Below are positions 32,048-59,211 of a DNA stretch of 64,000 bases, one piece after another. The notes beneath the pieces were generated by a model. The model ran no database searches, had not been told where the DNA came from, and was given only the letters and a program-made list of their open reading frames with translations. Source of the DNA: Flavobacterium sp. (GTDB lineage Bacteria; Bacteroidota; Bacteroidia; Flavobacteriales; Flavobacteriaceae); contig NZ_PNJW01000007.1 of assembly GCF_013822155.1 (NCBI RefSeq), positions 1 to 64,000 on the forward strand. Reading direction: 5' to 3'. The stretch's first letter is position 1; each line of letters starts with the position of its first letter. The translations under genes were made by a program, and so were the position numbers.

Positions 32048-32836
32048 ATGAATAAAATCAACCTATTTATATTTTTTATACTACTGCTTTTTTTTAGTTC
32101 ATGCGTTCCCACCAAGGATTTGACTTATCTTCAAGATAATGGACAAGTTAAAGATTCAATTGTTGTTAATCAAACAGTTAGGAAGCCATATCGAGTTCAA
32201 ACAAATGATATCTTAATGATTAATATTAAAACCATTGATCCTAAGTTATCAGCAATGTTTAGACCGACAGAAAGATTACAAAGTAATAATAACGAACAAA
32301 CTTTATTTTTTGAAGGTTCAACGGTAGATGATCATGGAAATGTAAGAATTCCGGTTTTAGGTGAGGTTAATGTAATTGGTAAAACAACAGAAGAGATTAG
32401 GATTTTAATTGAAAAAAGATTGTTAGAAGAATATTTCAATATTGAAGCAAATTTATTTGTCTCCGTAAAAATTGCCGGAATGAGATATACTATTAATGGA
32501 GAGATTAAAGTACCGGGAACTAGCACGCTTTTTGTTGAAAACGCAACTATAATGGATGCTATTTCAAACTCTGGTGATATTACAATGACTGGCGATCGCA
32601 AAAATGTAATTGTAGTAAGACAATACCCGCATGGAGTAGAAATGCATAAAATTAATTTGTTAGAAAAAAAAGCACTTGAATCTCCTTATTATTATTTACA
32701 ACCAAATGATTTTATTTTAATAAATCCTTTAAAGCAAAAATCATGGGGAACTGGAACAACCGGTATTCAATCCTTAACTACAATAATATCAGTCCTTTCC
32801 TTGGCTACTACTATTATAGTATTAATGCAGTTATAA
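32048..32836 (+). CDS. Polysaccharide export outer-membrane lipoprotein (Wza/GumB-like)
   Basis: A 262-residue export lipoprotein. The ATG at 32048 gives MNKINLFIFFILLLFFSSC, a lipoprotein signal with the modified Cys at position 19. The Poly_export and SLBB parts follow: RKPYRVQTNDILMINIKTID, then GNVRIPVLGEVNVIGKTTEE and RYTINGEIKVPGTSTLFVEN. The C-terminus has a single hydrophobic helix (SLTTIISVLSLATTIIVLM), common in Bacteroidetes versions and perhaps an inner- or outer-membrane anchor. It is expected to form the export channel with the Wzc-like protein encoded 13 bases downstream. Confidence 0.92.
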   Translation: MNKINLFIFFILLLFFSSCVPTKDLTYLQDNGQVKDSIVVNQTVRKPYRVQTNDILMINIKTIDPKLSAMFRPTERLQSNNNEQTLFFEGSTVDDHGNVRIPVLGEVNVIGKTTEEIRILIEKRLLEEYFNIEANLFVSVKIAGMRYTINGEIKVPGTSTLFVENATIMDAISNSGDITMTGDRKNVIVVRQYPHGVEMHKINLLEKKALESPYYYLQPNDFILINPLKQKSWGTGTTGIQSLTTIISVLSLATTIIVLMQL

Positions 32837-32849
32837 TTTATATATAAAT

Positions 32850-42393: not shown

Positions 42394-43578
42394 ATGTTTT
42401 TATTTGATAAAGAACGAACCGGCAGAATTCAATCTTCTCATGTTTATGATAATTTACCTCAAGAGATTTGGAAAATTTCATTTAAGCAAGACCCCATTCG
42501 TTGTGCAGAATCGACACCGGTTATTGATGGTAATGGAAACATGTATTTTGGTTCACATAACGGATGTATTTATTGTTTAGATTCAAATGGTTCAGTCAAA
42601 TGGCAGTTTGTTACTGAATATAAAGTGTATTCCAGCCCGTTATTAGTTGAAGATAAATTATACATTGGTTGTAATGCCTCCACTTTGTTGTGTTTAAATT
42701 TAGAAGGCGAATTAGTTTGGCGGTATGACGGTTATTTGGCATTTGCTAAACAGTCTAAATTAAAAAGGTTAGTAATAAACACTTTTAATCATTTATTTTA
42801 TGATTATGAATTTAAAAAATTCATGAAAATAAATACTTGGGTTTCGCCTAATTTAGTAAACGACAAAAAAATAGCTTTTGTTTTTTACGGATTAGGGTTG
42901 GTTTTACTTGATAAAGATTCTGGGCAAGTTGTTTGGCAAAAATCATTAGGGAATCCCGGATATCATTTAGCGGGAGTTGCTGTTGTTGCAGATGAAGGAA
43001 AAGATTTAATTGCCGTTATTGGACAAAATAGCGGTTTACATTTGTTTCAGGAGGATGGAAATTTACGTTGGAAGAAAAAACCTTTTTTCAGGTCTAATGC
43101 CTGGGCAAATCCGTCGATAGATCCTCAAGAAAAATGCATTTATCACACGGAAAGTTTTTTTAATAAAAAAGCAATTTTATATAAAACGGATTTAAACGGA
43201 ACAACTCTTTGGAAAAGAGAATTTCCGTTTGGTTGCCGGGCTTCGGTAGCCATAAGCAGAAAAAATTTCATTGTGTTTTTAGGCTTAAACGGCACGGTTT
43301 ATCTTTTAGATAAAGCTACCGGAAAGGAATTATATTCTTTAGCCATTGCCTCAAAAGACAGGGGATTATGGACTTCGCCGTCGTTGATGGCTAATGACCA
43401 TGTTTTAATTAATACTAAAAAAACAGTTAAGAAAGGATCACTTATTTGTCTTTCTGAAAAAGCTGAACCGGTTTGGGAAATTGAGTATGCCAAAGCATTA
43501 TCAGTGCCTGTGATTGATTCAAATGGTTTTCTTTACTCTGCGACATGGGCAGGAGACTTTTATAAATTTAAAAAATAA
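42394..43578 (+). CDS. PQQ-like beta-propeller protein without signal peptide
   Basis: A 394-residue predicted beta-propeller. Repeats with the PQQ/BamB pattern are visible: STPVIDGNGNMYFGSHNGCI then YCLDSNGSVKWQF, SSPLLVEDKLYIGCNASTLL then CLNLEGELVWRY, GLVLLDKDSGQVVWQK, and VPVIDSNGFLYSATWAGDFY at the end. The N-terminal MFLFDKERTGRIQSSHVYDN shows no signal peptide or membrane segment, so the protein is probably cytoplasmic. It lies one base after the flippase gene and 5 bases before the pyruvyltransferase-like gene. Role unknown; a scaffold or sensor is possible. The propeller fold is well supported; PQQ binding is not implied. Confidence 0.82.
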   Translation: MFLFDKERTGRIQSSHVYDNLPQEIWKISFKQDPIRCAESTPVIDGNGNMYFGSHNGCIYCLDSNGSVKWQFVTEYKVYSSPLLVEDKLYIGCNASTLLCLNLEGELVWRYDGYLAFAKQSKLKRLVINTFNHLFYDYEFKKFMKINTWVSPNLVNDKKIAFVFYGLGLVLLDKDSGQVVWQKSLGNPGYHLAGVAVVADEGKDLIAVIGQNSGLHLFQEDGNLRWKKKPFFRSNAWANPSIDPQEKCIYHTESFFNKKAILYKTDLNGTTLWKREFPFGCRASVAISRKNFIVFLGLNGTVYLLDKATGKELYSLAIASKDRGLWTSPSLMANDHVLINTKKTVKKGSLICLSEKAEPVWEIEYAKALSVPVIDSNGFLYSATWAGDFYKFKK

Positions 43579-44747: not shown

Positions 44748-45895
44748 AAAAAATAGTTTACATATTAGATACTTTTGAAACCGGTGGAGCCGAAAAAAGT
44801 TTATTGGACATTGCCATTCAAAACAAAGCGGCAACGTCTTATTTTATAACGATTTATCGGGGTAATCAATTGGCTGAATTAGCAGCTAAAAATGGTATTA
44901 CTGTTTTTCAACTTAATAACGATGAAAAGTATGGTTTTTCAAAAGCGGTACAACAACTTATTCCAATCATCAAAGAAATTCAGCCTGATATCATCCATTC
45001 TACTTTATTTCGGGCCGATATCATCGCCAGAAAGCTAAAGAAGCACTTTACTATTCCATTAATTTCCAGCTTGGTCAACAATTCCTATATTGAAGAGCGT
45101 TATTCCAAACTAACTACTTTAGGCAAATTAAAACTTTATGGTATTCAACAGCTGGATGCTTTTACGGCGAAGCATGTTGATTTATTTATCTCTAATTCAG
45201 AAACAATCAAAACGTCTAATGCCAAGCATTTACATCTTAATCCGGAAAAAATTAAGGTTATTTTCAGAGGAAGAGATTTTGATAAGTTTCAACATAGTAA
45301 CGAAGAACGGATTCATCAACTTAAAAAAGAGTTGGGCATTCGTGATAATGACCAAGTTTTAGTAAACGTCAGTCGTTTATTAGAACGAAAAGGGCAACTC
45401 GATTTATTGGACGCTTTTAAGAACCTTTTACAAAAGCAACCCCAATTAAAATTGCTGATAGCCGGAGAAGGAGGTTATCGAAAAAATTTGGAAGCTAAGA
45501 TAGCGGCTTATCAATTACAGGACAACGTTCAACTTTTAGGGAATCGAAATGATATTCCCGATTTACTTCGTTTGGCTACTGTTTTTGTTTTTCCTACCCA
45601 TTATGAAGGATTACCCGGAGCTTTAATTGAAGCTATGATGGCCAAAAAAATTATTGTTTGTTCGGATATTTCAGAAAATAAAGAATGTGTTACTTCAAAA
45701 GAAGCCGTTTTTTTTAAAAAAGGAGATGTATCTGATTTAGAAAATAAGTTGGAACAGGTTTTATCTAATCAAGCCCTTTATATTGACTTAGCTCAACATG
45801 CTCAACAAGTGGCCTATGACAAATTCAGTATTGAAAGTATTGTTAAGCAGTATAATCAAACTTATGAAAGTTTAATTCGTTTTAACAAATCATGA
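44744..45895 (+). CDS. Glycosyltransferase family 4 protein (TTG start)
   Basis: A 383-residue GT-B glycosyltransferase. N-terminal loop YILDTFETGGAEKSLLDIAI (the G-G-A-E acceptor loop), then QPDIIHSTLFRADIIARKLK. The C-terminal donor domain has LVNVSRLLERKGQLDLLDAF, LLIAGEGGYRKNLEAKI and FPTHYEGLPGALIEAMMAKK (the E-G-x-P-x-x-x-x-E motif of GT4). The start is a TTG that overlaps the preceding stop; no in-frame ATG would retain the N-terminal strand. The next gene starts at ATGA overlapping its stop. Sugar unknown. Confidence 0.9.
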   Translation: MKKIVYILDTFETGGAEKSLLDIAIQNKAATSYFITIYRGNQLAELAAKNGITVFQLNNDEKYGFSKAVQQLIPIIKEIQPDIIHSTLFRADIIARKLKKHFTIPLISSLVNNSYIEERYSKLTTLGKLKLYGIQQLDAFTAKHVDLFISNSETIKTSNAKHLHLNPEKIKVIFRGRDFDKFQHSNEERIHQLKKELGIRDNDQVLVNVSRLLERKGQLDLLDAFKNLLQKQPQLKLLIAGEGGYRKNLEAKIAAYQLQDNVQLLGNRNDIPDLLRLATVFVFPTHYEGLPGALIEAMMAKKIIVCSDISENKECVTSKEAVFFKKGDVSDLENKLEQVLSNQALYIDLAQHAQQVAYDKFSIESIVKQYNQTYESLIRFNKS

Positions 45896-46983
45896 TAATT
45901 TTTCAACTTATTCAAAAACCACAACTTCGCGGGGCCGAGATGTTTGCGGCTCAACTTTCGCAAGAGTTGGAAAAAAGCGGACACACCGTTTTTTTGATTG
46001 CTCTTTTTCCCGGTGAATCGGTTTTGCCTTTTTCGGGGACTTTACTTCCATTGAATCGCCCTATAGCTAAACGATGGACAGATTTTGAAGGTTGGAAGCA
46101 GTTCGCTATTTTAATTGAGCAACATCAACCGGATGTGATTCAATGCAATGCCGGTGATACGTTGAAATTTGCGGTTTTGTCTAAGCTTTTGCACCGTTGG
46201 AAAACCCCTTTGGTTGCTCGAAATGCCAGTATGGTCAGTTCTTATATTCACCATCCGGTTACCAAATGGATTAACGGTTTTTTTTATAAAAATACGCAGG
46301 CTATTATCTCGGTTTCTCAACTTTCGGCTATTGATATCAATGAATTATTTCCGGAAACAAAAAGCAAAACAACCGTTATTCCTATCGGGGTTCAATTTCA
46401 GGATAGTAAACCCGTTCAGTGGAAAAATGAAGGTAAAGCGAGTATAAACCTCATTCACGTTGGCGGTTTTACGTTTGAGAAAAACCATACGGGTTTACTG
46501 TCTATTTTTCAAAAATTCTTAGCGGCAAATCCGGAGGCTCATTTGCATTTATTGGGTGATGGTCCGTTGAGAGGTTCTGTTGAAGCACTGGTACAACAAA
46601 ATAACCTAATTGATTTTGTTACTTTTTACGGGTTTGTGCCAAATGTAATTGATTATATTCACCATGCCGATGTTTTGGTTTTGCCGAGTGTTATTGAAGG
46701 ATTGCCCGGCGTGATTTTAGAAGCTTTTTATGCTCAAACACCTGTGGTTGCCTATAATGTGGGAGGCGTTTCGGAAGTGTTGCAAAATAACGAAACGGGC
46801 TATTTGATTGAAAAAGGGGATGAAGAATCTTTTGTTTCGGCTATACGGAAGGCCATCGATCCTGTTGACTCGGTTGAAATGGTTAAAAAGGGACACCAAC
46901 TCGTTGTACAAAAATTTAATAATACCTACCTTGCCAAGCAGTTTGAAAAAACCTATTTAATGTTAACCAATGACAAAAATTAA
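45892..46983 (+). CDS. Glycosyltransferase family 4 protein
   Basis: A 363-residue GT4-type enzyme. The acceptor-domain loop is QKPQLRGAEMFAAQLSQELE, followed by QPDVIQCNAGDTLKFAVLSK. The donor domain shows LIHVGGFTFEKNHTGLLSIF, HLHLLGDGPLRGSVEAL and VLPSVIEGLPGVILEAFYAQ with the catalytic-site Glu pair. The ATG overlaps the stop of the previous gene by four bases, and its own end overlaps the next gene by 14 bases, so translation is probably coupled. Sugar specificity unknown. Confidence 0.9.
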   Translation: MIIFQLIQKPQLRGAEMFAAQLSQELEKSGHTVFLIALFPGESVLPFSGTLLPLNRPIAKRWTDFEGWKQFAILIEQHQPDVIQCNAGDTLKFAVLSKLLHRWKTPLVARNASMVSSYIHHPVTKWINGFFYKNTQAIISVSQLSAIDINELFPETKSKTTVIPIGVQFQDSKPVQWKNEGKASINLIHVGGFTFEKNHTGLLSIFQKFLAANPEAHLHLLGDGPLRGSVEALVQQNNLIDFVTFYGFVPNVIDYIHHADVLVLPSVIEGLPGVILEAFYAQTPVVAYNVGGVSEVLQNNETGYLIEKGDEESFVSAIRKAIDPVDSVEMVKKGHQLVVQKFNNTYLAKQFEKTYLMLTNDKN

Positions 46984-48088
46984 AGTTTTACATATTATCA
47001 AATCATTGGGACGAGGGGGAGCAGAAATGTTGCTGCCGGAAACACTCAAAATGCATGATAAAACGGCTTTTGAGTTTCATTATATTTATTTTCTTCCGCA
47101 GAAAAATCAGATGGAAAAAGCCATTTTGGAAGCCGGCGGAAAGGTTACTTGTTTTCCGGCTAAAAATAATCTTTCACTAGTATTACAATATCCTAAAATC
47201 AGTACTTATTGTAAAGAGAATAAAATTCAACTTATTCATGCACATCTGCCTTGGGCTGGAGTGGTGGCCAGAATTGTTGGCAGACTCACTAAACTACCGG
47301 TTCTTTATACCGAACATAATAATTTTGATCGGTATCATTTTTTAACTAAAGCGGTAAGTACAATAACTTATAAATACCAGACAAAAGTATTAGCCGTTTC
47401 AGAGGATGCCAAAACAGCCTTAGAAAAAAGAAATTTGTTTCATGATATAGTGTATGTTCCTAATGGCGTTAATACTTCCTTTTTTTTTAGAGAGAACAAG
47501 TTTAAAGCGATAGAAGAAGTGGACAACTTCAAAGAAAATAATAGTATTATTGGAACTGTTGCGGTCTTTAGAAAACAAAAACGATTAGCTATTTTTATAG
47601 AAGTGGCTCTTTTGGCTCAACAGAAAAATTTACCCTTCAAATTTTTGATGGTAGGAGATGGCCCTGAAATGGAGTCTATCAAAAATTTGATTGACCAATA
47701 TAAACTTACGAATGTTTACTTAGCCGGGCTTCAGGATCAACCGGCAAACTACATGCAATACATGGATGTTTTTCTTATTACGAGTGATTTTGAAGGGTTG
47801 CCTGTAGCTTTATTAGAAGCCATGAGCATGCAAATTGTTCCTTTTTGTACACCCGTTGGTGGAATTCCTACGATTATAAAAGACAATCAAAATGGTGTTT
47901 TATTAAAAAGTCAGGATCCGGCAGAAATACTGGATCAATTAGAAAATAAAATTGTAAAGGAAAAGGAAAATTTTATATCAATGAAAAACCAAGCAAGAGC
48001 TACGATACTTGCTGAGTACAGTATACAAAGGATGGTGATTCAATTAGAAACTATATATGCAGAAGTGCTGAATGATGAAATCAACTAG
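46970..48088 (+). CDS. Glycosyltransferase family 4 protein, paralogue A of the GT4-GNAT module
   Basis: A 372-residue GT4-type enzyme. It begins with the strand IKVLHIIKSLGRGGAEMLLP and has IQLIHAHLPWAGVVARIVGR, PVLYTEHNNFDRYHF and, in the donor domain, GTVAVFRKQKRLAIFIEVAL and SDFEGLPVALLEAMSMQIVP. It is a close paralogue of the gene at 50965, whose N-terminus shares IKVLHIIKSLGRGGAEMLL and IQLIHAHLPWAG. Each copy is followed by a GNAT gene, so the GT4-GNAT pair has been duplicated. It overlaps the downstream GNAT gene by about 14-17 bases. Confidence 0.91.
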   Translation: MTKIKVLHIIKSLGRGGAEMLLPETLKMHDKTAFEFHYIYFLPQKNQMEKAILEAGGKVTCFPAKNNLSLVLQYPKISTYCKENKIQLIHAHLPWAGVVARIVGRLTKLPVLYTEHNNFDRYHFLTKAVSTITYKYQTKVLAVSEDAKTALEKRNLFHDIVYVPNGVNTSFFFRENKFKAIEEVDNFKENNSIIGTVAVFRKQKRLAIFIEVALLAQQKNLPFKFLMVGDGPEMESIKNLIDQYKLTNVYLAGLQDQPANYMQYMDVFLITSDFEGLPVALLEAMSMQIVPFCTPVGGIPTIIKDNQNGVLLKSQDPAEILDQLENKIVKEKENFISMKNQARATILAEYSIQRMVIQLETIYAEVLNDEIN

Positions 48089-49004
48089 TTTTATATATCA
48101 ATTCGCAAAGCCAACAGATGTTGAGCAAATTGTAACACTATTTAAACTTTGTTTAGGTATAGAAGGTGGTGCACCTACCTTGGCTTTTTGGAATTGGAAA
48201 CATAATGAAAATCCTGCAGGGGTATCGCCTGTTATTTTGGCTTGGGATCAAGATAAACTTATCGGTATTAGAGCGTTTATGTGTTTTAAGTTTATAAAAA
48301 ATAATGAATCGTATGTTGGATATAGACCTGTAGACACAGCAACCCACCCGGATTATCAAGGAAAAGGAATATTTAAAAATTTGACGTTGACTTTACTGGA
48401 AGAGTTAAAGAAGAAAGAAGAAAATGCTTTTGTCTTCAACACGCCAAATTCTAAGTCAAAACCGGGCTATTTGAAAATGGGTTGGATAGAATGGGGCAAA
48501 CCTTTTCTTCAACTGATGCCTACCTTCTCTATTTTAGGGAATAGTTTTAAAAAAGACCAAGAGCGATTATTAAATTATGATTTTTCGACAATATCCAAAC
48601 CTGAATCCAATCATTTAGCAGTATATAAGGATGCGGAATATTTAGCTTGGCGTTATCAAAAAATAAGCTTGCAACAGTATGGAATGAAAATAATGGACGT
48701 AAATAATACACAATATACGATCATTTACAGACAGAAAAAGATTAAATTTTTGAATGAATTCAGAATATGTGATGTGCTAAAAAACAATACAATTTGTACT
48801 GAAATCTCAACTATTATTTTGTTTAAATTGTTTTTCTCCTTTGGTTTTGGAGTGCTCTCTTTTATCAATAAAAAAACATTTTGGTTTACTATAAAACTTA
48901 ACAACAAAGCCCCAATGATAACGTATAGAAAAATCAAAGAGGAGGATGCTATGCTGCTTTTCAATAAAGTTGATTTTAGTATTGGGGAATTAGAACTTTT
49001 TTAA
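48072..49004 (+). CDS. GNAT-like acyltransferase, paralogue A of the GT4-GNAT module
   Basis: A 310-residue protein with an N-terminal GNAT (acetyltransferase) domain. Visible features are FAKPTDVEQIVTLFKLCLG, FWNWKHNENPAGVSPVILAW, GIRAFMCFKF and the acetyl-CoA loop region YRPVDTATHPDYQGKGIFKN (R/Q-x-x-G-x-G/A-like QGKGIF). PNSKSKPGYLKMGWIEWGKP is shared with the paralogue at 52077. The C-terminal half (about 190-310) is not recognised. A role in acylating an amino sugar or in the glycan unit is inferred from its place. Two adjacent ATG codons (48072, 48075) may start it. Confidence 0.78.
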   Translation: MMKSTSFIYQFAKPTDVEQIVTLFKLCLGIEGGAPTLAFWNWKHNENPAGVSPVILAWDQDKLIGIRAFMCFKFIKNNESYVGYRPVDTATHPDYQGKGIFKNLTLTLLEELKKKEENAFVFNTPNSKSKPGYLKMGWIEWGKPFLQLMPTFSILGNSFKKDQERLLNYDFSTISKPESNHLAVYKDAEYLAWRYQKISLQQYGMKIMDVNNTQYTIIYRQKKIKFLNEFRICDVLKNNTICTEISTIILFKLFFSFGFGVLSFINKKTFWFTIKLNNKAPMITYRKIKEEDAMLLFNKVDFSIGELELF

Positions 49005-49006
49005 TT

Positions 49007-50842
49007 ATGTGTGGAATATTTGGTTGTATAGGTGAAGTTTCAGATGCTCGTAAAGGAGCAATCTCTCAAAGTCTTTTTCATAGAGGCCCTGATAAACAGG
49101 CATTTGCTACGGTCAATGGGTTTACGCTGTTTCACAGTAGGCTCAGTATTATTGATAGTTCGGGGGGTAATCAACCTTTTTTAACAGACACCGTTGCTTT
49201 GGTTTTTAATGGGGAAATTTATAACTATAAAGAACTAATTAAAACACATCAGTTACAGGTTAGTTCAAAGTCTGATACGGAAGTAATAATCCGTTTATAT
49301 GAAAAACTAGGCAAAGATTCTTTTCAATTTTTGGATGGTATGTTTGCCTTTTGTTTACTTGATTTAAAAACAAATGACGTTTTTTTAGTTCGGGATAGAG
49401 CGGGTAAAAAACCACTTTATTACACACAGGGAGATAATTTTATGTTTTCAAGTGAGATGAAAGCATTTTTCGCTGCAGGTTTTAAAACCGGCATTCATAC
49501 TGAAAACCTAAAAATGCATTTACAAAAAGGTTTTGTTGCCGGAGAACCTACCATTTATGATGCAATTTACGAAGTTTTACCGGGCCACTTTTACCATTTT
49601 TCACCCGATGGGAATGTACGTTCTAAAGTGCAATATTGGTCATACCAGGCGGTGTTAAAAAACACTAAACTTGTATCAAATGAACAAGAGGGTTTATCAC
49701 TGTTAGATTCAAAGCTTCATGCTGCCGTTGAAAAAAGAATGTTAGCGAGTGATTTGGAAGTTGGTGCTTTTTTAAGTGGTGGCATTGATAGTTCGTTAGT
49801 CTGTTCGCATGCTGTAAAAATCAACCCAGCTTTAAGAACATTTACTGTGCAAACCGGTGATGGGTTTGACGAATCTACTATTGCATCTGCCATTGCAAAA
49901 CAATTAAAAACAAATCATACGGTATTGAAAATTGACGCTTCAAATTTAAAAAATGATTATGTCAAAATTTTATGTGCCTATGATGAGCCAATTATTGATG
50001 AGAGTATAATCCCTTCTTATTATGTGGCTCAAGAAGCAAAAAAACACGTTACTGTTATTTTGAATGGAGATGGAGGTGATGAAGTTATGGGAGGATACAG
50101 AAGGCATTTATTGTATAAGCATTATCATGCTTTACAAATGTTACACTATCCGATTTCTTTACTTCAAAAAATGTTTCCTTCAACAGACGATAAAATGAGT
50201 TGGAAAAATTATATCAAACGATTACACTCTTTTGCAACCTTGGATGAATCTCAAAAATATTTTTCTGCCACAACAGATTTATTTTATGATGCACCGGGTT
50301 TTAGAGAGCCGGTTGATTTGTATTGGAACCAAATTGTTGAAGAATCAAGCGATTTAAACACAAGCTTAGACAAAATATTATACCTTGATTTCATGGGTAT
50401 TTTGCCTAAAATATTACTAAAAAAGATAGACATATCTACAATGCAACATGCCATTGAGGGAAGGTCTCCTTTTTTAGATACTAATTTTATAGAAGCAACA
50501 GCCGCAATTCCTCAACATTTAAAAATAAAGGGTATTACGTCAAAATACTTATTGCGTAAATTAGTTCAGCAAAAAATACCCGGAGATTTTCATAAGTTAC
50601 CCAAACGAGGTTTTGAGATTTCAGTTCAAAAATTGCTGGAAACTGATTTAAAAGAAATGGCAACTGATTTATTGCATAGTCAGTCTCCTTTTTATAAAGA
50701 ATTACTAGACGAACAATACATAAAAAAGTATTATTTAAAAGCAAATTCTAAAGTAGATGAAGTAAAACGCTACAAAGGAATTTTTGCATTATTGAATTTA
50801 GAAATTTGGCATCAAAATTTAAATCTAACCCAAAAATATTAA
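49007..50842 (+). CDS. AsnB-type glutamine-hydrolysing amidotransferase
   Basis: A 611-residue class II glutamine amidotransferase plus asparagine synthetase domain. Cys2 in MCGIFGCIGEVSDARKG is the glutaminase nucleophile; SLFHRGPDKQAFA and VFNGEIYNYKELIKTHQ complete that domain. The synthetase domain has the PP-loop LEVGAFLSGGIDSSLVCSHA and LNGDGGDEVMGGYRRHLLYK. It could make asparagine, but AsnB-like enzymes inside O-antigen and capsule loci with uronic-acid genes often amidate a hexuronic acid, which fits this neighbourhood. It sits between the two GT4-GNAT pairs. A 122-base gap with a tandem repeat follows it. Confidence 0.93.
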   Translation: MCGIFGCIGEVSDARKGAISQSLFHRGPDKQAFATVNGFTLFHSRLSIIDSSGGNQPFLTDTVALVFNGEIYNYKELIKTHQLQVSSKSDTEVIIRLYEKLGKDSFQFLDGMFAFCLLDLKTNDVFLVRDRAGKKPLYYTQGDNFMFSSEMKAFFAAGFKTGIHTENLKMHLQKGFVAGEPTIYDAIYEVLPGHFYHFSPDGNVRSKVQYWSYQAVLKNTKLVSNEQEGLSLLDSKLHAAVEKRMLASDLEVGAFLSGGIDSSLVCSHAVKINPALRTFTVQTGDGFDESTIASAIAKQLKTNHTVLKIDASNLKNDYVKILCAYDEPIIDESIIPSYYVAQEAKKHVTVILNGDGGDEVMGGYRRHLLYKHYHALQMLHYPISLLQKMFPSTDDKMSWKNYIKRLHSFATLDESQKYFSATTDLFYDAPGFREPVDLYWNQIVEESSDLNTSLDKILYLDFMGILPKILLKKIDISTMQHAIEGRSPFLDTNFIEATAAIPQHLKIKGITSKYLLRKLVQQKIPGDFHKLPKRGFEISVQKLLETDLKEMATDLLHSQSPFYKELLDEQYIKKYYLKANSKVDEVKRYKGIFALLNLEIWHQNLNLTQKY

Positions 50843-50873
50843 TTAGTAGTTTTTAAACATCAAAAGTGAATGT

Positions 50874-50917
50874 CTTTTGTTAAAAAGTTACACATCTTTT
50901 GTTCAAAAGCTATACAT
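50874..50917 (+). repeat. Two 22-bp tandem repeats with internal palindrome upstream of GT4 paralogue B
   Basis: Unit 1 is CTTTTGTTAAAAAGTTACAC-AT and unit 2 is CTTTTGTTCAAAAGCTATAC-AT, identical at 19 of 22 positions and exactly adjacent. Unit 2 contains the perfect palindrome CTTTTG-TT-CAAAAG. Period 22 bp is two helical turns, as in sites for dimeric or tandem-binding regulators. It lies 47 bases before the ATG at 50965, in the only sizeable gap inside the cluster. No clean TAnnTTTG follows, so whether it is an operator, an internal promoter region or a recombination scar is open. Confidence 0.7.
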
Positions 50918-50964
50918 TAACTAACTTGCAAAACTGACAATTAATAACAGTCAAATCGATTTTA

Positions 50965-52080
50965 ATGCCAAAGATTAAAGTTTTACATATCATTAAATCA
51001 CTTGGTCGCGGCGGTGCAGAAATGCTTTTGCAGGAAACGATTAAAAAGCATAATCAGCATGATTTTGAATTTCACTATCTTTATTTTTTACCTTGGAAAG
51101 ACCAAATGGTTGAATCAATTCAATCGGCAGGAGGTATAGTTACTTGTTTTTCCGCTAAAAATAATATATCACTGTTATGTCAATACCGAAGAATTATTAA
51201 GTATTGTCGTCAGCATCAAATTCAATTAATTCATGCTCATTTGCCTTGGGCAGGTTTTGTCAGTCGATTAGTGCATCGTTTAACCGGAATTCCATTATTA
51301 TACACAGAGCACAACATTCAAGAACGGTATCATTTTGCAACTAAAATTATTAATAAATATACCTTTAACTGTCAATCTATGGGAATTGGTGTTTCAGAAG
51401 ATGTTACCAATTCTATTCAAAAAAATATTTTTCCAATTATTCCTGTTCAAACTGTTTTAAATGGTGTAAATACAGAAAATTTTACCAGAAAAGGAACAAC
51501 TGAACAGTCAGTGATTAGAAAGCAATTTGGCATACCTGATGATGCTTTTGTTGTAGGAACCGTGTCGGTTTTCCGTTTCCAAAAGCGGTTAGATTTATGG
51601 TTGGAAATTTTAAAAACCGCCGTTGATAAAGATGCTTCTGTTTACGGAATTATTGTAGGAGCCGGTCCATTACAAGCTGAATTGGAACAAAAACATAAAG
51701 CTTTGGGATTAGAAGGGAAAGTTTTTTTTGCAGGACTTCAAGTAGAAGTTAGGCCCTATTATGAAGCAATGGATAGTTTTATGATGTGTTCCTCTTTTGA
51801 AGGTTTGCCCATCGCCTTGCTTGAAGCCATGAGCATGGAGTGTGCTATTTTGACAACAGACGCCGGTGGAATTAAAGAAGTTGTTCGAAATAATCAAGAA
51901 GGGATGGTTGTATCCGTTGAAAATTGGGCGGAATTAGCCAATAAAATAGAGCTTGTTAAAGGGGATGACGAATTTTTAAAGAAATTACAGCAATCAGCCA
52001 GAATCAGAGTGATTGATTCTTTTAGTATGGATAATATGGTAGTAACTTTGGAAAGTTTATATCGAAAATATACATCATGA
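50965..52080 (+). CDS. Glycosyltransferase family 4 protein, paralogue B of the GT4-GNAT module
   Basis: A 371-residue GT4-type enzyme, paralogous to the gene at 46970. N-terminal IKVLHIIKSLGRGGAEMLLQ, acceptor-domain IQLIHAHLPWAGFVSRLVHR and PLLYTEHNIQERYHFATKII, donor-domain GTVSVFRFQKRLDLWLEILK, GIIVGAGPLQAELEQ and SSFEGLPIALLEAMSMECAI. Its last bases overlap the following GNAT gene (ATGA type). The preceding gap carries a 22-bp tandem repeat. Donor and acceptor unknown, but likely related to those of its paralogue. Confidence 0.91.
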   Translation: MPKIKVLHIIKSLGRGGAEMLLQETIKKHNQHDFEFHYLYFLPWKDQMVESIQSAGGIVTCFSAKNNISLLCQYRRIIKYCRQHQIQLIHAHLPWAGFVSRLVHRLTGIPLLYTEHNIQERYHFATKIINKYTFNCQSMGIGVSEDVTNSIQKNIFPIIPVQTVLNGVNTENFTRKGTTEQSVIRKQFGIPDDAFVVGTVSVFRFQKRLDLWLEILKTAVDKDASVYGIIVGAGPLQAELEQKHKALGLEGKVFFAGLQVEVRPYYEAMDSFMMCSSFEGLPIALLEAMSMECAILTTDAGGIKEVVRNNQEGMVVSVENWAELANKIELVKGDDEFLKKLQQSARIRVIDSFSMDNMVVTLESLYRKYTS

Positions 52081-53018
52081 CCATTCGTTTAGCCAAAATA
52101 GAAGACACCAATGCCATTGTTCAACTTTTAAAAGAAAGTTTGGGTGAAACGCTATTGAAAAAAACGACTACCATTTGGAATTATAAACATCATCAAAATC
52201 CATTTGGAGAATCCCCGGTTTTATTAGCAGAAGAAAATGGTCAAATTATTGGAGTAAGAGCTTTTATGCAATGGCAATGGCAAGATGGGAATACTATTTG
52301 GCAGGCTTATCGTGCAGTGGATACGGCGACTCATCCAAACCACCAAAGAAAAGGAATCTTTACAAAATTGACGCTTTTGGCTTTAGAGAATGTAGGAATT
52401 TCAAAAAAGTGTTTTGTTTTTAATACGCCCAATGAAAAAAGTCGTCCCGGTTATTTAAAAATGGGGTGGGTATCACTTGGTAAAATTAACATCAAAATTA
52501 TTCCAACTTTTTTGTATGGTGTAAATTATTTGTTTTCTAAAGATGAAAAATATGCTATTTCAATGGGTGAAAATCAATTGCAATCACTTTGTGAGCAGCA
52601 TAATGAAAGAATGAAAAAAGGTTCAGGATTATTTACCCCTAAGTCAGTAGATTATTTAAACTGGCGTTATAGAGACAATCCGATTCAATCGTATGAAATT
52701 ATCACAGGGGATAATTGGTATATTGCAATGCATATCAAGAAACATACGTATTTTAATGAACTTCGAATTTCTGAAGTATTAGGAGCCGATAGTCCATCGG
52801 AAAGAAAACAAATTAGAAAAGTTGTCACTAAATTTGCACTTCAAAATCGGTGTTTATTAATTATTACAACAGAGCGTCAATTATTTTCACTAGGTTATTT
52901 TGGTGCAGTAGGGCCTATATTAACTTGTAGAGATTTAACTGAGAATGGCGTAATTCTTTCACAATCAAGAAATGAGAAAACATGGCAATATGCTTTGGGT
53001 GATCTCGAATTATTTTAA
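52077..53018 (+). CDS. GNAT-like acyltransferase, paralogue B of the GT4-GNAT module
   Basis: A 313-residue protein with an N-terminal GNAT domain, paralogous to the gene at 48072. Shared blocks: TIWNYKHHQNPFGESPVLLA, GVRAFMQWQWQDG, YRAVDTATHPNHQRKGIFTK and PNEKSRPGYLKMGWVSLGKI, and both end in GDLELF or GELELF. The acetyl-CoA-binding loop reads QRKGIF here against QGKGIF in copy A. The ATG overlaps the GT4 stop (ATGA). Acylation of a sugar in the repeat unit is inferred. Confidence 0.78.
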   Translation: MTIRLAKIEDTNAIVQLLKESLGETLLKKTTTIWNYKHHQNPFGESPVLLAEENGQIIGVRAFMQWQWQDGNTIWQAYRAVDTATHPNHQRKGIFTKLTLLALENVGISKKCFVFNTPNEKSRPGYLKMGWVSLGKINIKIIPTFLYGVNYLFSKDEKYAISMGENQLQSLCEQHNERMKKGSGLFTPKSVDYLNWRYRDNPIQSYEIITGDNWYIAMHIKKHTYFNELRISEVLGADSPSERKQIRKVVTKFALQNRCLLIITTERQLFSLGYFGAVGPILTCRDLTENGVILSQSRNEKTWQYALGDLELF

Positions 53019-53021: not shown

Positions 53022-54209
53022 ATGGATATAATTCTTGTTTTTGTCGTTTTATTGATTGCAACCCAAGTGTTGTTAAATAGTCTTGCTAAAAAACATCTTT
53101 TTTTTAATAAAAAACTACTTAACTATCTGTATTTTTATCATTTAGTATTCTTTTTAGTATACTATACTTATACTATTTATAACCCTTCTGACTCTAAATT
53201 CTACTACTTATTTACCGAGGAATCTTCTTTAGATTGGTTTGGAATTTTAGATACCAATAATGGGTTTATTCATTTTTTAGCCTATCCATTTGTTAAAATT
53301 GGTTTGTCCTATGAATCTTTAATGCTTATATTTTCCTGGTTTGGATATGTAGGATTTGTGTTTGCTTATCTTTTTATGCGGGAAAATATTCCAATTAATG
53401 TAAAAGTTTTTAAAAAATATGATTTATTGACATTATTACTCTTTTTACCCAATATGCATTTTTGGACGGTTTCTTTAGGAAAGGGTTCTGTCATTTTTAT
53501 GGGTTTAATGATTTTTACTTATGCCGTGAAATCGCCTTATCGACGATGGTTTTTATTGATTTTTGGAGGATTTTTTGTTTATATGGTTCGTCCACACGTC
53601 ATGTTATTTATGTTAGTATCAGTGACAGCAGGATTATGGTTTGGAAAAGAAAAAATGAGTACTGGTTTAAAATTTTTGATTGTCATTGCCTCTATCGGGT
53701 TTTTGGCAGCCGCCAGTAATTCCATTTTAGCCGTTGCTAAATTAGAAAACTCTGAAAATGTCATTTCTGATTTTGAAACATTTGCAGAATCCAGATCACA
53801 AGGGTTGTCAGAAAAAGCCGGTTCAGGAGTTGCCATGAGTAATTATCCGCTTCCTGTTAAGTTATTTACTTTTTGGTTCCGACCTCTTTTTGTAGATTCT
53901 CCCGGGGTTCTAGGGATATTCAGTTCTTTTGAAAATTTTATTTATTTACTTTTGTTCGCTAAAATATGTAATAAACGATTTATAAAGTTTTATAGGAATT
54001 CAGTTTACATGGTTAAAATGTCGGCGATTGCCTTTTTGTTAACTTCTTTTGCGATGACTTTTGTGATGTCGAATTTGGGGATTATTATGCGGCAAAAATC
54101 CATGGTGATGTATTTTGCCTTTTTTGTCATTTATTATTTTTTAGCCCAGGAGGAATATGATAAGCAGCAAAAGCGGGGTTTAGTTTTAAACGATATAACT
54201 CCTTCGTAA
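53022..54209 (+). CDS. Polytopic membrane protein, candidate O-antigen/capsule polymerase (Wzy-like), copy 1
   Basis: A 395-residue protein with about 9-11 hydrophobic helices and no recognised catalytic motif, the usual picture for Wzy polymerases. It shares a block with the gene at 55169: LLFLPNMHFWTVSLGKGSVI, then MVRPHVMLF and FTFWFRPLFVDSPGVLGIFS, with an extracytoplasmic loop (about 245-280) between the last helices. Only the shared N-x-H-(F/Y)-W-T-x-x-L-G-K segment and R-P-H-V look like functional motifs. It starts three bases after the GNAT gene. Alternatives are a membrane acyltransferase or ligase; polymerase is favoured by context. Confidence 0.72.
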   Translation: MDIILVFVVLLIATQVLLNSLAKKHLFFNKKLLNYLYFYHLVFFLVYYTYTIYNPSDSKFYYLFTEESSLDWFGILDTNNGFIHFLAYPFVKIGLSYESLMLIFSWFGYVGFVFAYLFMRENIPINVKVFKKYDLLTLLLFLPNMHFWTVSLGKGSVIFMGLMIFTYAVKSPYRRWFLLIFGGFFVYMVRPHVMLFMLVSVTAGLWFGKEKMSTGLKFLIVIASIGFLAAASNSILAVAKLENSENVISDFETFAESRSQGLSEKAGSGVAMSNYPLPVKLFTFWFRPLFVDSPGVLGIFSSFENFIYLLLFAKICNKRFIKFYRNSVYMVKMSAIAFLLTSFAMTFVMSNLGIIMRQKSMVMYFAFFVIYYFLAQEEYDKQQKRGLVLNDITPS

Positions 54210-54210: not shown

Positions 54211-55167
54211 ATGGAAAAAGGAAAGTTTGTCATTTCGTTGGATTTTGAATTGGTTTGGGGTGTGTTTGATCACATTACCCTAACGGATAAAGTGGCTTAT
54301 TTTGACAATACACTCGAGGTTATTCCAAAGATGTTAGCTTGTTTTGAAAAACATCAACTCCACGTTACTTGGGCAACAGTTGGCATGCTTTTTAATCAAA
54401 ATTGGGAAGAATGGCTGGGTAATAAACCAGTTGAAATACCCACTTATACCAATACCAAGTTAGATGCCTATGCGTATGGATTGCAACATCAACATCTTGG
54501 TTTGGACCGCTTCTTTTTTGCTCCTGAATTAATAAAATTGATTCAAAAAATACCCGGACAAGAGTTGGCTACCCACACCTATTCGCACTATTATTGTTTA
54601 GAATCCGGTCAAACCAAAACACAATTTGAACAGGATTTGGACAAAGCTGTTATGATGGCTTCCAACTTCGGAGCAACATTACATTCCTTAGTTTTTCCAA
54701 GAAATCAATGGAATCCGGATTATCTTGGCAGTTGTCAGGAAAGAGGTATTACGCAATTGCGTTCCAATCCGGACGCATGGTATTGGAAAGATACGTCACA
54801 ATCATCTTTAGCCACTAAGTTATTTCGAACCGGAGATGCTTATTTACCCTTAGGTTCTACCTCGTATTCGATGGAAAAAGTGAAAGTTGATTTAGTAACT
54901 GCTCAACCCGCCAGTCGTTTTTTAAGACCCCATCATCGTTTATCTCTTTTGAATTCATTGCGGTTGCAACGTATCAAAAATGAAATGTTGCAGGCCGCCA
55001 AACAGGGTGAAGTATATCATTTGTGGTGGCACCCGCATAATTTTGGAAATCATCCCGTCGAATCGATGGTGGTTTTGCATGAAATTGCTTCGTGGTTTAC
55101 TTTATTACACGAAAAATATGGTATGGAGTCAGTACCCATGAAGGATTTAACCTCAGCAATCCAGTAA
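54211..55167 (+). CDS. Polysaccharide deacetylase-like protein (NodB fold)
   Basis: A 318-residue protein resembling the NodB/CE4 carbohydrate esterase family. The first motif is FVISLDFELVWGVFD (metal-binding/catalytic Asp region), the second THTYSHYYC (H-x-x-x-H), and PRNQWNPDYLGSCQERGITQ and YHLWWHPHNFG correspond to later motifs. There is no signal peptide, so it is likely cytoplasmic, unlike most surface deacetylases, and might act on a lipid-linked or nucleotide-linked sugar. It lies between the two Wzy-like genes, with one base on each side. Confidence 0.84.
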   Translation: MEKGKFVISLDFELVWGVFDHITLTDKVAYFDNTLEVIPKMLACFEKHQLHVTWATVGMLFNQNWEEWLGNKPVEIPTYTNTKLDAYAYGLQHQHLGLDRFFFAPELIKLIQKIPGQELATHTYSHYYCLESGQTKTQFEQDLDKAVMMASNFGATLHSLVFPRNQWNPDYLGSCQERGITQLRSNPDAWYWKDTSQSSLATKLFRTGDAYLPLGSTSYSMEKVKVDLVTAQPASRFLRPHHRLSLLNSLRLQRIKNEMLQAAKQGEVYHLWWHPHNFGNHPVESMVVLHEIASWFTLLHEKYGMESVPMKDLTSAIQ

Positions 55168-55168: not shown

Positions 55169-56317
55169 TTGAATAAAATAGCCAACATTTTTGATTTTTC
55201 TACTTTTTGGGTTTCACTTCAACAACCTGACAGTAAAATTTTTAAAATGGGTTTATTCTTATGGCATTTTGTTTTTGTTTTTATCGCTTGGAACGATAGA
55301 GTAAAAATTGGGATATCAGATGCCCATTATTATTGGGCTGAAAATTATTCTCTGGCTGAAAAAAGTTGGTTTTCTTTTTTTAGTTATGGAACCGACTTTG
55401 TGGTTTGGCTCAATTATCCTTTTATTAAATTGGGTGTCCCTTTCTTGGGTGGATTTATTATATATGGCCTTATTGGGTATTTTGCCCTTTTAAATTTTAT
55501 TCATTGGATTACTCTTGTGCTTGGTAGTTCCGTGAAATTCGGAAAATATAACCTCTTGCTGTTGTTGTTTTTTTGGCCTAATTTACATTATTGGACAGCC
55601 GTTTTAGGGAAAGAAGCTTTGATTTTTTGGAGTCTTTCCGTTTTATTTTTGGGTTTTACCACCCAACAATTTAAAAATCTTTCTTTTGTGTTGGCTGTTT
55701 TATTGTTGCTGGTGATTCGTCCTCATGTCGGCTTATTACTGCTCGCTGCCGGAGGACTTGCTTATTTGATTACTTCGGAAATGCCTTTCCGTAGAAAATT
55801 AAAAAAAGTCTTTTTTCTTTTGCCTTTTGCCGTGGTATTATTTTATATGGTTTTAACCCTATCAAAAATCAGGTATTTGGATTGGGATCGTATTGTTCGG
55901 TTTAACAGAGGTTCCGTTTTGTCTTTTAGTGATTCGGGGTCTTATGTGCCTATGGAGACCTATTCCTGGTTTTACCGCCTGGTTTCTTTTTATTTCCGTC
56001 CTTTTTTATGTGAAGCTACTTCTTTTAGAACCGTTATTGTTGGGTTAGATAATTTAATTTACCTTATTTTGCATGGAATAGCTTTGGTTTTTCTATACCG
56101 CTATTTTTCAAAGCTTAAACAATTGCGTATGCCATTTTGGTGGTATACTGCTGTTTTTTTTAGTTTGTTTTGTGGGATGGTATTTATCTTTCGCTATGCT
56201 AATTTTGGAATTTTTATGCGTACCAAAATTATGTATGCTCCTTTTATGGTTGTCGCGTTACTTTGGTTAAGTTTGGAATTAAAAAATATAACTGTTTTAA
56301 ATAAAAGTAAAAATTGA
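55169..56317 (+). CDS. Polytopic membrane protein, candidate polymerase (Wzy-like), copy 2 (TTG start)
   Basis: A 382-residue membrane protein paralogous to the gene at 53022. It shares LLFFWPNLHYWTAVLGKEAL, LLLLVIRPHVGLLLLAAGGL and SFYFRPFLCEATSFRTVIVG, in the same order. A TTG one base after the preceding stop gives MNKIANIFDFSTFWVSLQQP; an ATG at 55247 would remove 26 residues and is possible. Having two related membrane proteins around a deacetylase-like gene suggests duplication and possibly two linkage specificities, or that only one is the true polymerase. Confidence 0.72.
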   Translation: MNKIANIFDFSTFWVSLQQPDSKIFKMGLFLWHFVFVFIAWNDRVKIGISDAHYYWAENYSLAEKSWFSFFSYGTDFVVWLNYPFIKLGVPFLGGFIIYGLIGYFALLNFIHWITLVLGSSVKFGKYNLLLLLFFWPNLHYWTAVLGKEALIFWSLSVLFLGFTTQQFKNLSFVLAVLLLLVIRPHVGLLLLAAGGLAYLITSEMPFRRKLKKVFFLLPFAVVLFYMVLTLSKIRYLDWDRIVRFNRGSVLSFSDSGSYVPMETYSWFYRLVSFYFRPFLCEATSFRTVIVGLDNLIYLILHGIALVFLYRYFSKLKQLRMPFWWYTAVFFSLFCGMVFIFRYANFGIFMRTKIMYAPFMVVALLWLSLELKNITVLNKSKN

Positions 56318-57471
56318 CTACACACAAAAAAAAATTAATACGTATCACTACGGTTCCACTTTCTTTAGATAAATTATTGGAAGGGCAGTTGCGTTTTATG
56401 CAACAGCATTTTGAAGTGACTGCGATTTCTTCCGAAAAAGCATACCTTGAAAAAATCGGTAATCGGGAAGGTGTTAGCACTTATCATTTGGAAATGACCC
56501 GACAAATTACCCCGTTCAGTGATTTGATTTCCTTAATTAAACTTACTTTCTATTTTCTTAAAGTCAGACCGGATATAGTGCATTCCCACACGCCAAAAGC
56601 CGGTATTGTGGGTATGGCTGCTGCTTTTTTAGCCCGAGTTCCGCATCGTTTTCATACGGTAGCCGGTTTACCTTTGTTAGAAGAATCGGGTAGTAAGCGA
56701 AAGGTGTTGGATTTTGTGGAAAAGGCGACTTACTTTTTTGCCAATAAAGTATACCCTAACTCCAATGGATTGAAAGAAATTATTCTTCAAAATAACTATT
56801 GTAAGCCCAAAAAATTAACCGTTTTGGCTAACGGTAGTACCAATGGCATCAATACTACTTATTTTTCCAACGACCATTTCAGTTTTGCCCAAAAGGAGGA
56901 ATTGAAAGTACGCTATGACATTCAAGACACTGATTTTGTCTTTATTTTTGTTGGTCGTTTGGTTACTGATAAGGGGATTAATGAATTGATTGCCGCTTTT
57001 AAAAAATTAAAGATTAATCATCCTACTGCGAAGCTTTTATTGGTAGGTCCCTTGGAAACCGAATTAGATCCTTTACTTCCCCAAACATTAGAAGCGATTG
57101 AAAATGTAAAACAAATTAAGGCGGTGGGTTATCAACAAGATGTTCGGTTGTTTTTTGCCATTTCCCATTGTCTTGTTTTTCCGAGCTATCGTGAAGGATT
57201 TCCCAATGTGGTGATGCAAGCCGGAGCGATGGAGCTTCCTTCGATTGTTTCTAATATTAATGGTTGTAACGAAATCATTGTTCCTTCTCAAAACGGGGTT
57301 ATTATTCCCACTAAAGATGAAAAAACATTGTTAGAGGTCATGATAGAACTGATGGAAAACAAGGATTATTATGCACAATTGCGGGAAAATGCGAGGCCGA
57401 TGATTGTGAATCGGTATGAACAGCAGGTTGTTTGGAAGGCTATTTTGAAGGAATATCAGCTGATGGGGTGA
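56314..57471 (+). CDS. Glycosyltransferase family 4 protein (TTG start), PglA/CapM-like
   Basis: A 385-residue GT4-type enzyme. N-terminal KLIRITTVPLSLDKLLEGQL and PDIVHSHTPKAGIVGMAAAF are typical of the PglA/WbpU/CapM-like enzymes that act early on undecaprenyl-linked bacillosamine or related sugars. Donor-domain motifs are FVFIFVGRLVTDKGINELIA and VFPSYREGFPNVVMQAGAME. The TTG start overlaps the preceding TGA (TTGA). It is the last gene before the islet at 57.5-59.5 kb. The PglC-type gene downstream would be its natural partner, so the islet may have separated them. The acceptor role is inference. Confidence 0.88.
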   Translation: MTTHKKKLIRITTVPLSLDKLLEGQLRFMQQHFEVTAISSEKAYLEKIGNREGVSTYHLEMTRQITPFSDLISLIKLTFYFLKVRPDIVHSHTPKAGIVGMAAAFLARVPHRFHTVAGLPLLEESGSKRKVLDFVEKATYFFANKVYPNSNGLKEIILQNNYCKPKKLTVLANGSTNGINTTYFSNDHFSFAQKEELKVRYDIQDTDFVFIFVGRLVTDKGINELIAAFKKLKINHPTAKLLLVGPLETELDPLLPQTLEAIENVKQIKAVGYQQDVRLFFAISHCLVFPSYREGFPNVVMQAGAMELPSIVSNINGCNEIIVPSQNGVIIPTKDEKTLLEVMIELMENKDYYAQLRENARPMIVNRYEQQVVWKAILKEYQLMG

Positions 57472-57505: not shown

Positions 57506-58273
57506 TTATTTAGGGTTATGTTTCAGGACTTGCTGAATGGTTACTGAATTGAAACTTCTTTTGAGTGGTCTGACTGTTTTTTTGTATTTTTCAGAAAAGC
57601 CCACGAAAACGTAGAGTAACACTAATTTATCCCCTTTTAATTTCTCCGGGTGGAGTGTAATGTCGATGGTCTTGTCTTCTTTTTCAAACGTCACTTCTTC
57701 GCTGTAAGCCGTTTCGAAAGTATCTTTTTCATAGTCCCAATTTGTTTGAGCAACTGCTAAGTGAACAAAAGAAGCATTTTCCGGCCATTCGATGTCGTGA
57801 AGCAACGAGAGGTTAGGCAGGTTAAACGTTTCCGATTGGACATCCCATTTTCCCTTTTTTTTCAGGGTTTGGTACAATGGTTTTAGTTTGTTTCCCTCGA
57901 AACCAATCAGTAAATTTACTCCTTCCGTGGTATTCATTCCGTTTTCAACGGTTCTTTCTCCTCTTTGATTCAAGGTATCTTCTTCTAAAATTTCAAATAT
58001 TATTTTGTTGGCTCTTCCAGCGAAGCTTACGTCTTTGGCTTTTTTATTGAACTGTAGAGTCAAAAATCGAAATATTCTACTTTTTTTAGAAGCCTGACCA
58101 AATTCTATTCCATGTTTTTTAATTGTGTTGAAAATCGGATTGGTTTTAAACTGTTCGGCGGTTATGCCTGATTTACCTTTTGTACGCACGCGGTTCACTT
58201 TACCTTGATCTAAATAAAAGTTAAGATCACCAATAGTTCCGATGATTACAAAGGGAGCTTTTACGATTGCCAT
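57506..58273 (-). CDS. Hypothetical protein of unknown function on the reverse strand
   Basis: A 255-residue protein I cannot place. It begins MAIVKAPFVIIGTIGDLNFY, followed by LDQGKVNRVRTKGKSGITAE and later MNTTEGVNLLIGFEGNKLKP. No signal peptide or transmembrane helix is visible, and it is rich in Lys and Glu. The start IxGxxGxxxFY...GxxxxRxKG resembles a pattern I have seen in uncharacterised Bacteroidetes proteins. It is the only reverse-strand gene in the polysaccharide locus and separates two glycan gene blocks, so it is likely an insertion together with the HigBA pair. Its own promoter was not resolved. Confidence 0.75.
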   Translation of the reverse strand: MAIVKAPFVIIGTIGDLNFYLDQGKVNRVRTKGKSGITAEQFKTNPIFNTIKKHGIEFGQASKKSRIFRFLTLQFNKKAKDVSFAGRANKIIFEILEEDTLNQRGERTVENGMNTTEGVNLLIGFEGNKLKPLYQTLKKKGKWDVQSETFNLPNLSLLHDIEWPENASFVHLAVAQTNWDYEKDTFETAYSEEVTFEKEDKTIDITLHPEKLKGDKLVLLYVFVGFSEKYKKTVRPLKRSFNSVTIQQVLKHNPK

Positions 58274-58555: not shown

Positions 58556-58849
58556 TTGAGGGTAATTGCAAAGAAAATATTGAAGGATTTTTGGGAAGAC
58601 CATAAAGATTGTGAACAGCAATTGAAATCTTGGTATCAGGAAGCTAGTAAGACTAGATGGAAAACCCCAAATGAAATAAAGACTGAATATCCCAGTGCAA
58701 GCATTTTGAGTGATAACAGAGTTGTATTCAATATTAAAGGAAATACTTATAGATTAATTGTAAAAATAAATTATGATTATCAGATGGTTTGGATTCGTTT
58801 TATTGGGACTCATGCTGAATATGATAAAATTAACGCTAATGAAATTTAA
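58556..58849 (+). CDS. higB: HigB-type toxin (mRNA interferase), TTG start
   Basis: A 97-residue RelE-superfamily toxin of the HigB type, expected to cut mRNA on the ribosome. The N-terminus RVIAKKILKDFWEDHKDCEQ then QQLKSWYQEASKTRWKTPNE is highly typical. The central SILSDNRVVFNIKGNTYRLI and C-terminal QMVWIRFIGTHAEYDKI complete the fold. The toxin gene precedes the antitoxin gene, the usual hig order. The start is TTG; no ATG is nearby in frame, and the sequence before it does not look coding. Confidence 0.92.
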   Translation: MRVIAKKILKDFWEDHKDCEQQLKSWYQEASKTRWKTPNEIKTEYPSASILSDNRVVFNIKGNTYRLIVKINYDYQMVWIRFIGTHAEYDKINANEI

Positions 58850-58854
58850 TTGAT

Positions 58855-59211
58855 ATGGACATTAAACCAATAAAAACAGAAAGAGATTATAATCAAGCAA
58901 TAGAAAGACTTGAAATTATTTTTAATGCTAAGTCAGGTTCTCCAGAGGGAGATGAATTAGAAGTTCTTGGAATTCTGATTGATCAATATGAAAATGAAAA
59001 TTTTCCAATAGGATTACCTGATCCAATCGAAGCTATTAAATTTAGAATGGAACAAATGGGCTACAATCAATCTGATTTGGCAAATATTGTCGGATTAAAA
59101 AGTCGTGCAAGTGAAATTCTCAATCGAAAAAGGAAACTTACCTTAGAAATGATTAGACAGATTCATGAAACATTGCATATTCCAACGGATGTATTGATTC
59201 AAACCTATTAA
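58855..59211 (+). CDS. higA: HigA-type antitoxin with XRE helix-turn-helix
   Basis: A 118-residue antitoxin. N-terminal IKTERDYNQAIERLEIIFNA and GDELEVLGILIDQYENENFP are typical of this HigA group. The C-terminal helix-turn-helix is MEQMGYNQSDLANIVGLKSR then ASEILNRKRKLTLEMIRQIH. It binds and neutralises HigB and, with the palindrome at 58509-58523, represses the pair. It starts five bases after higB. Confidence 0.93.
   Translation: MDIKPIKTERDYNQAIERLEIIFNAKSGSPEGDELEVLGILIDQYENENFPIGLPDPIEAIKFRMEQMGYNQSDLANIVGLKSRASEILNRKRKLTLEMIRQIHETLHIPTDVLIQTY

Follow-up and report, generated by a model that had tools for sequence, protein, structure and literature searches.

The locus described here is part of a polysaccharide gene cluster of Flavobacterium sp. 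(assembly GCF_013822155.1, contig NZ_PNJW01000007.1) and lies within a stretch of 64,000 nucleotides, which is referred to below as the window. An AsnB-type glutamine amidotransferase gene is flanked there on both sides by a glycosyltransferase gene of family GT4 followed by a gene for a GNAT acyltransferase. This twofold arrangement had been noticed in a first-pass annotation and was confirmed here: the pairs and asnB form five open reading frames (Table 1), with junctions overlapping by 17 bp (GT4_1/GNAT1) and 4 bp (GT4_2/GNAT2), and, apart from a 122-nt seam that separates asnB from GT4_2, no long gap occurs among them. That annotation had missed the CE4 deacetylase, the type-linked wzyA and the chimeric nature of the GT4 genes. 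By family, these are ordinary GT4, GNAT, AsnB-type and CE4 enzymes. Both GT4 proteins displayed Pfam matches above cut-off to Glycos_transf_1 and Glyco_transf_4, and AsnB to Asn_synthase and GATase_7.

Table 1. Features of the locus and their positions in the window
Feature	Position	Strand	Remarks
GT4b	45892..46983	+	GT4 family; conserved; bounds the variable slot on its left side in loci of both types
GT4_1, whole gene	46970-48088	+	
GT4_1, codons 1-97, shared 5' third	46970..47260	+	0 type-distinguishing sites; N-part clade 97/95
GT4_1, codons 98-372, type-1-specific, including donor-binding domain	47261..48088	+	type split 100/100; co-varies with GNAT
GNAT1, predicted tandem-GNAT N-acyltransferase, type 1	48072..49004	+	Acetyltransf_9; conserved G97, G99, F101, N126, R194
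asnB, AsnB-type glutamine amidotransferase	49007..50842	+	TIGR01536 381 bits, cut-off 267.1
Seam between the two blocks, 122 nt	50843..50964	.	contains two direct repeats of 22 nt each (50873-50916)
GT4_2, whole gene	50965-52080	+	
GT4_2, codons 1-97, shared 5' third	50965..51255	+	site comparison and tree
GT4_2, codons 98-371, type-2-specific part	51256..52080	+	tree, site comparison, co-variation with GNAT
GNAT2, predicted tandem-GNAT N-acyltransferase, type 2	52077..53018	+	Acetyltransf_9; AlphaFold pLDDT 93.4; Eis/NMT-like fold
wzyA, GT-C-like membrane protein, putative polymerase, type-2 allele	53022..54209	+	type-linked sites; model pLDDT 90.8
deac, CE4 polysaccharide deacetylase, common to both types	54211..55167	+	PF01522 30.3 bits, cut-off 23.1; invariant motifs
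wzyB, wzyA paralogue	55169..56317	+	26-30% homology, alignment
GT4c, conserved right-hand glycosyltransferase	56314..57471	+	neighbourhood comparison, family search

Relatives were collected from named genomes, from approximately 400 genomes each of the phylum, the family and the genus, and from 150 relatives, these sets overlapping in part. The best five candidates per genome were scored in the phylum, family and genus sets, and up to 15 in the set of 150 relatives. Linked GT4-GNAT pairs, which the first-pass annotation had proposed to look for elsewhere, were indeed found in other genomes and fell into two arrangements. Type 1 displayed the order GT4b - GT4_1 - GNAT1 - asnB - wzyA - deacetylase (L003, L078, L085 and L086, the last with two additional genes separating GT4b from GT4_1), and type 2 the order GT4b - GT4_2 - GNAT2 - wzyA - deacetylase (most other loci, some likewise with genes interposed after GT4b and before GT4_2). 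The two types occupied the identical interval of Bacteroidota polysaccharide clusters, from GT4b to wzyA, with one type per genome. In the window they stand in series, as GT4b - GT4_1 - GNAT1 - asnB - GT4_2 - GNAT2 - wzyA - deacetylase, and no second genome holding both types was encountered among the best five to 15 candidates per genome of the ~1,200 genomes sampled. The asnB gene adjoined GNAT1 in all five type-1 loci and abutted or overlapped wzyA in those carrying type 1 only.

The window copies of GT4_1 and GNAT1 were 72-74% and 62-65% identical, respectively, to those of L003, L085 and L086, while GT4_2 and GNAT2 shared 64-67% and 48-56% identity with their same-genus orthologues. Trees of the GT4 C-terminal part and of the GNATs separated the types with 100/100 support. 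Site comparison between types uncovered little type-linkage in GT4b and none in the deacetylase; wzyA was type-linked, with 38 sites of the window copy agreeing with type 2 and four with type 1. The two pairs are thus best explained as two old lineages, that is, as alternative (allelic) decoration modules of one Wzx/Wzy-type Bacteroidota polysaccharide cluster and not as products of a recent duplication; together with the acyl exchange presented below, this forms a single explanation that we consider moderately probable as a whole. In F. orientale and strain AS60, an MBOAT O-acyltransferase gene lies between GT4b and GT4_2 (L079 12401-13843 and L080 8998-10443), where the window carries the type-1 block, so that the interval seems to be a slot that accommodates decoration genes. 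A third GNAT lineage (~290 amino acids) adjoins or neighbours a GT4a homologue in L070, L071, L072, L073, L075 and L080; two-GNAT clusters thus recur elsewhere, differently paired.

The GT4 genes themselves are chimeric. Between type 1 and Flavobacterium type 2, none of the 48 variable sites in residues 1-97 had disjoint residues by type, as opposed to 80 of the 213 in residues 98-366 (Fisher 4e-9). In the tree of the N-terminal part, type 1 grouped with Flavobacterium type 2 to the exclusion of other genera (97/95); this clade was rejected by the C-terminal part (approximately unbiased test, p-AU 2.7e-6), which placed type 1 outside all type 2. Among ten copies of the Flavobacterium group, distances of the C-terminal part and of the GNAT were correlated with r 0.98, also as a partial correlation with the N-terminal part fixed (0.98), and with the C-terminal part fixed no contribution was left for the N-terminal part (0.07). 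From the contrast in type-specific sites, the conflict between trees and this correlation, an exchange break is deduced near codon 97, directly after the conserved IHAHLPWAG, with the 3' part travelling together with its own GNAT. Gene conversion between the two GT4 genes of the window was rejected, since the similarity of their N-terminal parts was no higher than that seen between genomes. In GT-B enzymes the sugar donor is bound by the C-terminal domain; as it is this part that co-varies with the GNAT, each GNAT is suggested to be matched to the donor sugar of its GT4.

Both GNATs passed the cut-off of Acetyltransf_9 (PF13527; 42.6 and 50.6 bits, cut-off 25). The coenzyme A loop motif and the residues conserved among 54 relatives were kept in GNAT1 and GNAT2, the exception being position 91 of GNAT2, which is Arg and is Gly in 53 of the 54 relatives. 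Since many active GNATs carry Arg at this place in the loop and the remainder of the motif is intact, inactivation of GNAT2 by R91 was not accepted. Catalytically dead GNATs, named in the first-pass annotation as an observation that would speak against its reading, are accordingly not what the motifs suggest. The same annotation left the C-terminal halves without function. The AlphaFold model of GNAT2 (mean predicted local distance difference test score, pLDDT, as in Table 1; predicted template modelling score 0.91) matched Eis, related tandem GNATs and N-myristoyltransferase (NMT) over its full length (PDB, ~310 columns; Foldseek E ~1e-12, TM ~0.6, 9-14% identity), and the C-terminal half, which carries WRY and GDLELF motifs, is hence predicted to be a second, degenerate GNAT domain. 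The window GNATs share with Eis and NMT the two GNAT-like domains in one chain and differ in length (~313 amino acids versus ~390-400) and in their partner genes, which point to a sugar substrate. Membership in the FemAB-like family TIGR03019 was ruled out, as neither GNAT matched its profile at E 10.

A CE4 polysaccharide deacetylase gene accompanies both types. Its assignment follows from the PF01522 match and from the Asp and His-x3-His metal motifs; the SLDFELxWG, HTxxH and HLWWHPHN motifs were invariant in 28 sequences. The first catalytic motif starts at residue 9 and no obvious signal peptide was seen. The gene was located near every type-1 or type-2 GNAT for which enough sequence was available, even when the GNAT lay on the opposite strand. 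As indicated by the 392 phylum genomes, it was present in seven of the eight with a strong GNAT match and in eight of the 384 others (p 2e-10). Where a deacetylase locus lacked this GNAT, a formyltransferase gene (PF00551) directly adjoined in four of seven cases (L126, L127, L129 and L131); one of the remaining three loci ends at a contig edge. Genes near the deacetylase in L069, L070, L072, L074, L076 and L077 were also considered as formyltransferases and turned out to be GT2 glycosyltransferases. Having either a GNAT or a formyltransferase as its neighbour, the deacetylase appears to take part in an acyl exchange, in which a different acyl group takes the place of an acetyl group; on this gene content, its product would be a free amine destined for re-acylation.

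AsnB starts with MCGIFG, has the N-terminal Cys2 and exceeds the TIGR01536 cut-off, as expected for a class II amidotransferase. Its scores with TIGR03108 (WbpS, eps_aminotran_1) remained at 345-348 bits, far under the cut-off of 816.9. The wzyA product is modelled as a GT-C-like membrane protein; its structural match to STT3/PglB was weak (best E 0.04), which makes the polymerase role a guess. Genes wzyA and wzyB, on either side of the deacetylase gene, encode paralogous GT-C-like membrane proteins displaying no Pfam match.

The gene anatomy, the two lineages, the chimeric GT4 genes, their co-inheritance with the GNATs and the association with the deacetylase are established by the comparisons above; from these genes we infer the substrates, the order of steps and the working of both modules side by side, as follows. 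After addition of the GT4b sugar, GT4_1 or GT4_2 would each add its own N-acetylated amino sugar to the lipid-linked oligosaccharide at the cytoplasmic face. The shared deacetylase would then free the amine of the added sugar, and GNAT1 or GNAT2 would re-acylate it with a different acyl group taken from acyl-CoA. In type 1, AsnB would amidate a carboxylate, probably that of a uronic acid, and the finished unit would be flipped and polymerised. A strain possessing both modules may produce two different acyl-sugar decorations, perhaps at once, and in this respect the proposal of the first-pass annotation was retained as the best guess. The outcome may be two residues per repeat, a side branch or a mixed polymer, alternatives which are indistinguishable from sequence. 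The moderate probability given above applies to this entire model, a composite of two modules with acyl exchange by GT4, deacetylase and GNAT.

Several observations weigh against it. The N-terminal part of GT4, with only 97 columns, fails by itself to reject monophyly of type 1 (p-AU 0.15-0.22), so that its tree was not accepted as sole proof of recombination, and strong constraint could account for part of the N-terminal pattern. GNAT, GT4 and deacetylase genes are dispersed or on opposite strands in L006, L014 and L015, and the targets of deacetylase and GNAT could be different sugars. One type-1 genome (G890) has no UDP-sugar dehydrogenase genes within ~20 kb, which renders the uronic acid target of AsnB uncertain and means that type 1 is not always accompanied by these dehydrogenases. 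More generally, substrates and activities of all these enzymes are predicted from sequence and model.

In the most serious rival, the GNATs use a nucleotide-activated amino sugar (or a hydroxyl) as acceptor and the deacetylase works separately, with a different residue or the completed polymer as its target. There is precedent for GNATs that transfer acyl groups to nucleotide-activated amino sugars, and in this cluster amino sugars are made by downstream genes of the DegT and PglD type; PglD (60329) is, however, already available for that amine. The strong co-occurrence of deacetylase and GNAT even where gene order is scrambled, the formyltransferases as alternative neighbours of the deacetylase and its apparent lack of a signal peptide also argue for a joint role, and we regard separate action as rather unlikely, yet worth keeping in mind.

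The same kinds of enzymes are encountered in systems already described. In the pathway for the linking sugar of the type IX secretion system (T9SS), VimE is proposed to remove an acetyl group and VimA to add another acyl group (Ser or Gly) (PMC7468200), and AsnB-like WbpS amidates a uronic acid (PMC7468200; PMC13086638). Like the Wbp/Vim system of Porphyromonas gingivalis and Tannerella forsythia, the window combines a CE4 deacetylase, a GNAT-like acyltransferase, a glycosyltransferase and an AsnB-like amidotransferase on one polysaccharide. It differs in that VimA is related to TIGR03019, to which the window GNATs bear no match, in the TIGR03108 score of its AsnB, in its accessory distribution and in the possession of two GNAT modules. 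The cluster might nevertheless be the Flavobacterium counterpart of Wbp/Vim, making the linking sugar for T9SS cargo with a GNAT adding an amino acid: the set of activities equals that of VimE, VimA, VimF and WbpS (PMC7468200; PMC13086638), a full-length T9SS sortase gene is present in the genome (1373 bits) and a TviB-like dehydrogenase (548 bits, cut-off 592) lies within the cluster. With just 14 of 400 Flavobacterium genomes carrying this GNAT family, too few for a general anchor, with neither GNAT matching TIGR03019, with AsnB so far from the WbpS family and with no WbpB/E/D set seen in the window (these three were not searched for genome-wide), we hold such a role to be improbable. It would be a long shot to suppose that deacetylase and GNAT represent a Vim-like exchange evolved apart from VimE/VimA, yielding two different (amino)acyl sugars, one of them serving some Flavobacteria as another site to which T9SS cargo can be attached.

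A recent or mobile in-place duplication, in line with the mobile or duplicated cassette of the first-pass annotation, is highly improbable: the homologous pairs do stand in tandem around asnB and share a 291-nt stretch (73%, their best at the DNA level, corresponding to the 5' third of the GT4 genes), but orthologues from other genomes are far closer to each copy than its neighbour is (GT4_1 and GT4_2, 45% identity, E 3e-111; GNAT1 and GNAT2, 34%, E 3e-52), the shared block shows no greater similarity inside this genome (74%/66%) than the two types show when different genomes are compared (82%/75%), this GNAT family has just these two copies in the genome and the genes surrounding the pairs included no recognisable transposase or integrase. 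The shared blocks mentioned in that annotation, including PGYLKMGW, are real; they recur throughout the Bacteroidota family and do not mark an in-genome duplication.

XrtA/PEP-CTERM exopolysaccharide loci contain the same four enzyme kinds (TIGR03088 glycosyltransferase, TIGR03019 FemAB-like protein, TIGR03006 deacetylase and TIGR03108 amidotransferase). The best NCBIfam models for the window GT4s were BshA and TIGR03088; all window matches to the XrtA-type families were below cut-off, and the acyltransferase had none. As far as covered by the parts of the published account considered here (PMC6519341), the O-polysaccharide of Flavobacterium psychrophilum has a PglC-like start and contains Qui2NAc4NR, its serotypes being set by allelic wzy and R-group genes. 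These traits resemble the present cluster; in contrast, the acyl group is attributed in those parts to a PglD homologue and they do not describe a GT4-GNAT pair.

A limited literature search, with few subscription journals, yielded no published account of a two-module composite or of coupled GT4-GNAT exchange, and nothing on point concerning a sugar formyltransferase with a deacetylase or GNAT/deacetylase clusters of Flavobacterium. To our knowledge, replacement of an acetyl group has so far been described chiefly for the linking sugar that oral pathogens use with their T9SS. With its two modules, the composite offers a testable model of surface-glycan diversification in Bacteroidota, in which the donor part of a glycosyltransferase and the matching acyltransferase are swapped jointly while the 5' third of the glycosyltransferase gene stays fixed. 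That either a GNAT or a formyltransferase gene stands next to one kind of deacetylase further predicts a general step of 'acetyl off, other group on'.

The polysaccharide cluster extends from wza/wzc (32027) beyond the end of the window. Its nucleotide-sugar genes encode a TviC-like epimerase, UDP-glucose-dehydrogenase-like and TviB-like dehydrogenases and RmlB; further genes encode Wzx, several GT4s, two Wzy-like proteins, the CE4 deacetylase, a PglC-like phosphoglycosyltransferase, PglD and DegT. Pairs of wza/wzc are present at both ends of the cluster (window 32027-35330; L109 803-3965). Another glycan cluster of the same genome contains, beside a DegT-type gene, a weak match to TIGR03019 (51.7 bits, G000:C48:1971-2780, L107). 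A BamB/PQQ-like beta-propeller protein is encoded between wzx and a pyruvyltransferase gene (42394-43578) and has a 73% counterpart in F. orientale (L079). The cluster also harbours a HigB-type toxin gene (PF09907) with a helix-turn-helix antitoxin-like gene (58556-59211), beside which lies a minus-strand open reading frame of 255 amino acids belonging to no known family (57506-58273).

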